Shown in pieces: positions 27,083-28,392 of a DNA stretch of 47,380 nucleotides (within the stretch, counting starts at the first letter, position 1; the number at the start of each line of letters is the position of its first letter). This DNA is from an uncultured Pelagibacteraceae bacterium (GTDB lineage Bacteria; Pseudomonadota; Alphaproteobacteria; Pelagibacterales; Pelagibacteraceae), in NCBI GenBank assembly GCA_902522325.1, contig CABYVA010000007.1, forward strand, positions 1 through 47,380, read 5' to 3'. The notes under the pieces were generated by a model. It was not told where the DNA came from, did no database searches, and saw only the letters and a program-made list of their open reading frames with translations. The translations under genes and the position numbers were made by a program.

Positions 27083-27405
27083 CATATATTGTAAATGATA
27101 AATGTATAAAATGTAAACTAATGGATTGTGTTGAGGTTTGCCCAGTTGATTGTTTTTACGAAGGAAAAAATATGCTTGTAATTAAACCTGATGAGTGTAT
27201 AGATTGTGGCGTTTGTGAACCTGAGTGCCCAATAGATGCTATTGAACCAGACACAAATAAAGGTACAGAAAAATGGTTAGAAATAAACAAAAAATACTCA
27301 GAGATTTGGCCAAATATAACACAAAAAAAAGATCCCCCAAAAGATAGTAAGGAACACGAGAATGAAGAAAATAAATTTGAAAAGTATTTTAAAGAAAACA
27401 TTTAA
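27079..27405 (+). CDS. fdxA: Seven-iron ferredoxin FdxA
   Basis: Small electron carrier of 108 residues with one 3Fe-4S and one 4Fe-4S cluster. The N-terminus [28 protein letters not shown] supplies the first cluster pattern and [12 protein letters not shown] the second, almost identical to the alphaproteobacterial FdxA family. The start is GTG at 27079, inside the GTGA overlap with the TerB-like gene. The last ~35 residues, rich in Lys, Glu and Pro, are outside the clusters. Its 3' end overlaps the carD start by 44 bases, the longest same-strand overlap in the window. The redox partner is unknown. Confidence 0.96.
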
Positions 27406-28177
27406 AAAACCATCTAAAAAAAAAACTATAAAAGCATCAAAAACTTATAACAAAAAGACTAGTAGAAAATTAAAAAAAAAGAAAATAGCAAAGTCAAAAA
27501 ATATTAATCCAGTAAAAAAAAATATTTCTAAAGCAGAAACTAAAGTTGAAAACTTAAGAATTCCTAAATCCAATGAATTAAAGCCAGAAATTAAAAAAAT
27601 TAAAAAACAAGAAACAGAAAAAAAAATATACAAAGTTAAAGATTATGTTGTATACCCAAAACACGGCGTTGGACAAATTTTATCAATTAGCTCTAAGTCA
27701 ATTGGAGGTATTGAAGTTCAATGTTACGATATTAAATTTGAAAAAGATAAAGCTATAGGCTTACTACCAATAAATAAGCAGTCGAATTTAAGACCTCTTG
27801 CAACAATTAATCAAGTTAACAAATCAATCTCAATATTAAAAAGTAAACCAAAAATTAAAAGATCAATGTGGAGTAGGAGAGCACAAGAATATGAACAAAA
27901 AATTACTTCAGGCAAAATATACGATTTGGCAGAAGTGGTAAGGGATCTTAATAAAGGTGATGACTTGATGGTGGACCAATCTTATAGTGAAAGGCAACTT
28001 TTTGAAAAAGCTTATGAAAGAATATTATCAGAATTCCAAATAGTTATGGGTATATCTTTAGAAGATACTCAAAAAAAACTAGATAAAGCTCTTAAAAGAA
28101 ATTTGGAAAATCAAAAATCAAAAGTTGAACCAAAAGTTGAACCAAAACCAGTTGAAGAAACACAATTAGCAGAATAA
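27362..28177 (+). CDS. carD: CarD-family transcriptional regulator with lysine-rich N-terminal extension
   Basis: Binds RNA polymerase beta subunit and promoter DNA to tune open-complex stability. The CarD core runs from about residue 88 to 250: [17 protein letters not shown] (Tudor-like polymerase-interaction domain), then [13 protein letters not shown] to [17 protein letters not shown] and [10 protein letters not shown] (helical DNA-binding domain). Ahead lies an unusual ~90-residue extension with about 33 lysines, probably disordered and nucleic-acid binding. The C-terminus carries a [10 protein letters not shown] repeat. The only Met before the core is the one at 27362, supporting this start despite the 44-base overlap with fdxA. 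A strong terminator follows 6 bases after the stop. Confidence 0.93.
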
Positions 28178-28182
28178 AAAAA

Positions 28183-28222
28183 AACGCCCCACATAAAATA
28201 TTTATGAGGAGCGTTCTTTTTT
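28183..28222. terminator. Bidirectional rho-independent terminator between carD and the basic peptide
   Basis: AACGC pairs with GCGTT, then CC with GG and CATAAA with TTTATG around a 3-base loop, with two mismatches (stem 28183-28215). On the plus strand a T-rich tail (C then seven T) follows; on the minus strand the A run at 28176-28184 gives a matching T tail. It ends the helicase-to-carD unit and, from the other side, the 23-residue peptide gene. Confidence 0.85.
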
Positions 28223-28240: not shown

Positions 28241-28312
28241 TTATCTTCTTCTTCTTCTTTTTTTAGCTTTCTTTTTAGCTTTCTTTTTAGCTTTTTTTCT
28301 TCTTTTAGCCAT
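28241..28312 (-). CDS. 23-residue ultra-basic Lys/Arg peptide
   Basis: A very small gene too short for usual calling. The peptide starts MAKRRKK, continues with three Ala-led lysine triplets or pairs, and ends in five arginines before TAA; apart from Met and four Ala every residue is Lys or Arg. It has a good Shine-Dalgarno site (AGGGAG, 6 bases before the ATG), a plausible promoter with an exact TTGACA, and a terminator shared with carD, which is far better expression equipment than most genes here. The sequence resembles the tail of histone H1-like or ribosome-associated basic peptides. Function unknown; nucleic-acid binding is the natural inference. A tandem-repeat artefact is unlikely given the ordered signals. 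Confidence 0.75.
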   Translation of the reverse strand: MAKRRKKAKKKAKKKAKKRRRRR

Positions 28313-28318
28313 CTTTAG

Positions 28319-28324
28319 CTCCCT
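28319..28324 (-). promoter_or_regulatory. Ribosome binding site of the basic peptide
   Basis: The minus strand reads AGGGAG followed by 6 bases and the ATG at 28312. It is one of only two clear Shine-Dalgarno sites I saw in the window and is the main support for translation of this tiny gene. Confidence 0.7.
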
Positions 28325-28336
28325 GTTTTAGTTTTA

Positions 28337-28352
28337 CGAATCAATTGATTCG
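28337..28352. promoter_or_regulatory. Perfect 16-base palindrome ahead of the basic peptide
   Basis: CGAATCAATTGATTCG reads the same on both strands. It lies 25 to 40 bases before the peptide start and 12 bases past the proposed -10 box, so it may be an operator or, in RNA, a small hairpin near the 5' end of the leader. No T-run follows, so it is not a terminator. Confidence 0.5.
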
Positions 28353-28363
28353 CTCTTAACCTA

Positions 28364-28392
28364 TTTTTATTTTTTTTAATAAGTTATGTCAA
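28364..28392 (-). promoter_or_regulatory. Probable sigma-70 type promoter of the basic peptide
   Basis: The minus strand has TTGACA at 28392-28387, a 17-base spacer, and TAAAAA at 28369-28364. The -35 is an exact consensus match and the -10 is partial. It would start RNA near 28357, about 45 bases before the ATG. Confidence 0.55.

Follow-up and report, generated by a model that had tools for sequence, protein, structure and literature searches.

A conserved Lys/Arg peptide gene beside carD in Pelagibacter and the rhtB RNA as its probable antisense regulator

Next to the carD gene of an uncultured member of the Pelagibacteraceae lies an open reading frame of 23 codons whose predicted product consists almost entirely of lysine and arginine, which raises the question of whether so small a frame is a gene at all and, if so, how it is controlled and what its product might do. 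The window, the whole stretch of DNA that was analysed, comprises 47,380 nucleotides. Translation of 28241-28312 on the minus strand yields MAKRRKKAKKKAKKKAKKRRRRR*, i.e. Met, four Ala and 18 Lys/Arg, as claimed in the sequence-only reading that drew attention to the locus; the Shine-Dalgarno sequence AGGGAG six bases ahead of the ATG, the exact TTGACA -35 hexamer and the terminator after the frame, all of which that reading had described, were likewise recovered. The features of the locus are as follows.

28241..28312, minus strand: gene for the 23 aa Lys/Arg peptide, stop codon included, kept in 126/126 readable genus loci with a coding-type substitution pattern.
28319..28324, minus strand: Shine-Dalgarno AGGGAG, 6 nt before the ATG, exact in all unique genus loci.
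28306..28323, minus strand: GGGAGCUAAAGAUGGCUA, i.e. Shine-Dalgarno, start codon and first codons, an exact complement of the rhtB sRNA loop of relatives.
28337..28352, minus strand: leader palindrome CGAATCAATTGATTCG, a 5' mRNA hairpin with two GANTC sites, in 127/129 genus loci at a fixed distance from TTGACA.
28387..28392, minus strand: exact -35 hexamer TTGACA, in 129/129 unique genus loci.
28176..28222, no strand assigned: intergenic terminator hairpin between the peptide gene and carD, probably bidirectional.
27362..28177, plus strand: CarD-like transcription factor (Pfam CarD_C, 3.5e-19; CarD_TRCF_RID, 3.4e-11), the convergent neighbour and synteny anchor.

The TTGACA hexamer is followed by a weak -10 element (AAAAAT/TAAAAA), and the intergenic hairpin (-23.2 kcal/mol, z = -5.8) is strong, terminator-like and common to the peptide gene and the convergent carD. 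The minus-strand neighbour upstream of the peptide gene encodes an AMP-binding acyl-CoA ligase according to Pfam. A leader-peptide or attenuator role was considered for the frame and rejected, because the terminator and a convergent gene come next and there is no downstream gene to control. An Rfam search of the window returned two tRNAs and nothing else. The CarD protein of the window itself carries a long Lys-rich N-terminal extension ahead of its RID domain (27362-27620), a second basic low-complexity tract adjoining the basic peptide gene.

The closest named carD loci are those of uncultured Pelagibacteraceae and Ca. Pelagibacter, which places the genome of the window in Pelagibacteraceae (SAR11). 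A Lys/Arg/Ala ORF of 20-41 aa convergent with carD is present in all 126 readable carD loci of the genus Pelagibacter, and in every one of the 126 that entered the tree it is preceded by GGGAGCTAAAnATG. In the first set of loci it was found in 28/30, the other two being short loci with matches near contig ends, and an ORF with the same signals occurs in 80 named carD loci. Among the loci read over their full upstream region, the 129 unique ones encode 50 distinct peptides, whose 13 lengths span 20-41 aa and all stay in frame, and the leader palindrome CGAATC-n4-6-GATTCG lies 39-42 nt after the start of TTGACA; this set was selected by the Shine-Dalgarno and is thus no evidence for that element. 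The single 41 aa peptide comes from a g10 genome with 6% contamination (G087; contig C29, L240, L314) that has two carD loci, one of them with a Pelagibacter-type Lys/Arg gene and leader; this Pelagibacter-type locus is probably a contaminating contig, and the 41 aa case may come from it.

The substitution pattern resembles that of a coding sequence. Among 433 differences between similar coding sequences of equal length, 66% fall on third codon positions against an expected 31%, and 68% are synonymous where 30% would be expected; exchanges of Lys and Arg account for 26% and any other change for 5.5% against an expected 42%, all percentages being descriptive since the compared pairs overlap phylogenetically. 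Selection thus appears to maintain a Lys/Arg/Ala polypeptide and not an exact sequence or length, a trend that is clear in its direction. An ORF that is never translated, i.e. a chance A-rich frame within a conserved noncoding transcript, could account for the low complexity of the sequence and its lack of a match in protein family libraries, and one alternative frame is likewise open in all loci; this explanation is scarcely credible given that length changes stay in frame, that differences concentrate on third positions with nearly exclusive exchange among Lys, Arg and Ala, and that start and Shine-Dalgarno are conserved. The conjunction of ORF, promoter hexamer, palindrome and Shine-Dalgarno at carD is far beyond chance. 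The sequence-only reading had named a lack of conserved frame or start in close relatives as grounds for refutation, and this test failed to refute the gene: both, together with the expression signals, turned out to be kept genus-wide. On this comparative record the 23-residue ORF is a genuine, unannotated gene that is kept throughout SAR11.

Longer relatives occupy the same place in the rest of the order. Other genera of the family have MAKRRKK... ORFs of 19-58 aa beside carD, and a second family encodes MEELKVIFAKARKKAKKKAAPKKK... proteins of 40-89 aa there, with a composition like that of histone H1 tails. Sequence of such low complexity is no proof of orthology, which was judged instead by position, promoter and leader. 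No Lys/Arg ORF was found in the carD neighbourhood of loci from 28 other Alphaproteobacteria, and the pairing of the two genes appears specific to Pelagibacterales. Neither the short nor the long forms matched any Pfam or NCBIfam profile at E <= 10, those of the histone H1-like Hc1 and Hc2 included, and a PDB search with both forms gave nothing useful. The window peptide is best regarded as the shortest member of a family of basic proteins resembling H1 tails that Pelagibacterales carry beside carD. As for the earlier suggestion of a small nucleoid- or ribosome-associated protein, the conserved gene and its longer relatives across the order bear out the candidate in part, and the composition of the peptide and its Lys/Ala/Pro-rich relatives suggest that it may bind nucleic acid or the ribosome.

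A lead on the control of the gene, which is more informative than anything the sequence-only reading could see, comes from its translation initiation region. In most genus genomes AGGGAGCTAAAGATG occurs twice, once at the peptide gene and once at another site, where a C precedes it. Of the genus genomes that are at least 85% complete, 103/137 have exactly two perfect 19-mer matches, and among the site pairs listed one is A-prefixed and the other C-prefixed. With a 15-mer and up to one mismatch, the peptide gene and this second site are nearly the only matches per genome, while the reversed 15-mer as a control gives one match in 61 genomes. That the extra 15-mer matches might be another copy of the peptide gene was considered and rejected, as they lie on the strand opposite the rhtB element: the complementary strand of the second site encodes the Rfam rhtB sRNA (RF01814), with scores of 72-79 bits. 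Near 15-mer matches in other genera were also considered as rhtB elements and have no support from the rhtB model above the cut-off. For the leader of the second family, GGGGAGATAATTATGGAG, a matching sRNA was sought and not found, one of the extra matches looking like coding sequence.

In 2009 the rhtB element was presented as a conserved hairpin whose function was not known, a possible regulator or terminator often located before rhtB, with about 1250 representatives and abundant in marine metagenome sequence (PMC2704228). The accessible text of that report names no target for it, and none of the other papers searched names the motif. The Rfam model has a stem of 9 bp and, further in, one of 4 bp (AGCC/GGUU), with AUCUUUAGCUCCC as its 13-nt loop; the longer stem is 9-10 bp in these genomes. 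Read in reverse complement, the loop is identical to GGGAGCUAAAGAU, which in the peptide mRNA comprises the Shine-Dalgarno and the beginning of the AUG. The pairing extends over 14-18 nt, with up to 18 contiguous pairs in many genomes, and the hybrid energies of -35 to -44 kcal/mol compare with means of about -14 to -22 for mononucleotide shuffles, both calculated with duplexfold, which is blind to internal structure.

At a gathering cut-off of 55 bits the covariance model recovers RF01814 in 28/37 genus genomes and in 15 further genomes (64-83 bits) and in none of the control genomes. The genome of the window, which is 87% complete, has sub-threshold matches only (28.3 bits). It is one of nine genus genomes that have no match above the cut-off, and all nine are also without the conserved neighbour gene of the sRNA, whereas five relatives with peptides nearly identical to that of the window have RF01814 at 73-79 bits. 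The simplest reading of the missing sRNA in the nine genomes is an assembly gap.

Over the unique sRNAs the loop positions are 98-100% conserved, with the exception of one covarying base. A promoter-like AATGCA...TGnTATAnT is conserved upstream of the stem and suggests that transcription starts close to the beginning of the hairpin, at about its first base. Several U in a row follow the stem in about 12/57 unique copies, and many of those without such a run may be processed from the rhtB leader and not be free-standing. In 43/57 unique loci rhtB begins 4-14 nt after the end of the stem, and in the remaining 14 another gene (e.g. proC) or none lies downstream with the loop unchanged; conservation of the loop thus does not depend on rhtB, which speaks for action in trans, possibly after release from the rhtB leader. 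At 50/57 unique loci (e.g. L056, L083) a gene which we take to be DUF2805-like (MKKxHxPxTKVKNPEP...) lies upstream of, and divergent from, the sRNA.

The two loci are unlinked and change together. In some genomes the peptide gene reads GGGAGCTAAAA-ATG, and wherever these also have the sRNA it carries the matching change. This A-type sequence occurs in 16/399 genus genomes, 13 times at both loci and three times at one locus only, and the three have no G-type copy elsewhere. Where both loci could be read (43 genomes), 27 are G/G, 16 are A/A and none is mixed. The change to A-type maps to three events on the IQ-TREE tree and four on the FastTree one, and a single origin is rejected (p-AU 0.03). 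Two independent A/G events fall on strongly supported branches, with 3-4 in all, and a sign test on the covariation cannot reach significance because independent events are so few (two comparisons on strongly supported branches). In one genome (G175) a loop change preserves a G-U pair. Compensation at position +4 (ATGGCT vs ATGCCT, the latter in a Met-Pro clade) is absent, the sRNA still reading GCC in ATGCCT genomes; the sRNA base that faces +4 sits in the inner stem. Conserved complementarity to a translation initiation region and a compensatory change, by which antisense sRNAs and their targets are recognised, are both found here. This co-change across loci is the strongest evidence, and it concerns one variable base and few independent events.

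Taken as a whole, the data make it probable that the locus is a micro-gene for an almost purely Lys/Arg/Ala, nucleic-acid-binding peptide and that in Pelagibacter the rhtB sRNA, acting in trans, represses its translation. The 9-10 bp stem of the rhtB RNA would present its 13-nt loop to the peptide mRNA, where it would pair with Shine-Dalgarno and start codon through up to 18 contiguous pairs, and the resulting duplex would block ribosome entry and prevent initiation. Since the loop is exactly antisense to Shine-Dalgarno and start codon, the rhtB RNA probably switches the peptide off. The peptide in turn would most likely bind nucleic acid by charge and without a fold, so as to compact or neutralise DNA, with RNA as a further possible ligand. 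The gene, its coding constraint, its relatives across the order and the complementarity with covariation between loci are supported by the sequence comparisons; from them we infer that the two RNAs encounter each other in the cell, with repression as the outcome, and that DNA or RNA is what the peptide binds.

Three other accounts of the pair have to be weighed. The sRNA control might be the same and the peptide act on RNA or the ribosome, as a tiny ribosome-associated protein or RNA chaperone and not as a nucleoid protein. The smallest ribosomal proteins, eL41 and bTHX, have about 25 residues and are mostly basic, which the peptide resembles in size and charge, and conservation of a strong Shine-Dalgarno and promoter would suit a well-expressed protein. 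Unlike eL41 and bTHX, however, it belongs to no recognised sequence family: the peptide forms match no Pfam or NCBIfam profile of a ribosomal protein (eL41, bTHX and bS22 among the small ones), and they differ too widely in sequence and in length (19-89 aa within the order, with repeats of Lys/Ala/Pro), where ribosomal proteins keep their length and specific contacts. This role for the peptide is deemed unlikely, if still deserving of serious consideration.

Regulation could also run in reverse, with the peptide mRNA, rich in Lys and Arg codons and sensitive to the levels of charged tRNA, binding and controlling the leader of rhtB, a LysE-type amino-acid exporter. The Lys/Arg content of the peptide would fit a Lys/Arg exporter, as would the hairpin so close to rhtB in most loci, but the same loop persists in the 14 elements that have another gene or none downstream, the pairing covers the Shine-Dalgarno and AUG of the peptide itself and long relatives of the peptide occur where there is no sRNA, all of which renders the idea improbable. 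Lastly, the common 18-bp sequence could be a DNA or RNA motif recognised by a protein at both loci, which would co-change just as pairing RNAs do; as the leader palindrome indicates, there may be further binding sites close by. This is thought very improbable, since at the peptide locus the motif coincides exactly with Shine-Dalgarno and start codon, and at the rhtB locus its antisense strand is the loop of a hairpin described as an RNA family by covariance model (PMC2704228).

The proposed trans repression by the rhtB RNA can be set beside the leaders of other Pelagibacterales. Every genus examined, and the second family too, has kept CGAATCA about equally far from TTGACA. The arms of the leader hairpin differ by genus (GAAUCAAUUGAUUC, AUCACAUAAUU/AAUUAUGUGAU, CACUUAAAA/UUUUAAGUG), so that the 5' hairpin has been kept through changes on both sides. 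Genera g9, g10 and g12 (L308-L311, L316, L318, L321) and, in part, the second family (L031-L048) have a second leader hairpin that pairs with the Shine-Dalgarno region through CUCC..GGAG or CCC..GGG/CGC..GCG, and two Pelagibacter leaders that were folded have weak local pairing only at the Shine-Dalgarno. It is an attractive idea that anti-Shine-Dalgarno control may have moved from cis hairpins to a trans RNA in Pelagibacter.

GANTC is the target of CcrM, and the Pelagibacter palindrome holds two such sites just after the predicted transcription start (leaders of 129 genus loci compared), while the other genera and the second family looked at retain one GAATC. Methylation of GANTC occurs in Pelagibacter both in culture and in the sea (PMC9516812), and control of the gene by cell-cycle methylation at these sites is possible. 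A broader scheme is put forward tentatively and with more doubt than confidence: in the ocean's most abundant bacteria, a histone shrunken to a bare H1 tail of ~23 aa would control the state of the nucleoid and a dedicated trans anti-Shine-Dalgarno RNA its translation, the control having moved from cis to trans, possibly with CcrM input at the promoter.

The closest precedent is found in Chlamydia, where a loop of the IhtA sRNA occludes the start codon of hctA, which encodes the histone H1-like protein Hc1 (PMC4355289, PMC3469542). As with IhtA and HctA, the loop of a trans sRNA hairpin faces the start codon of an mRNA for a small basic H1-like protein, repression being proposed here. IhtA, however, has three stem-loops and pairs over 7 nt around the AUG without the Shine-Dalgarno, whereas the rhtB RNA has one hairpin and pairs over 14-18 nt that include both; HctA is larger and belongs to a developmental cycle, whereas the 23 aa peptide is that of a free-living ocean bacterium. 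The two pairs are not homologous. Like Hc1 and Hc2, the Pelagibacterales peptides consist of Lys/Ala/Pro or Lys/Ala/Arg repeats, and their size varies with repeat number as is described for Hc2 (PMC2848022), but the Pelagibacter form has only 20-41 aa, no other domain and no Pfam match.

The sRNA of the relatives is the rhtB sRNA itself, and what is new is its proposed target. An orphan RNA family, RF01814, thereby gains a specific candidate target, and a conserved, unannotated micro-gene is added to SAR11. If the proposal is true, antisense RNA control of a nucleoid-type peptide would be informative, because the streamlined SAR11 bacteria are believed to depend on post-transcriptional regulation to a greater degree than most others (PMC13198564).
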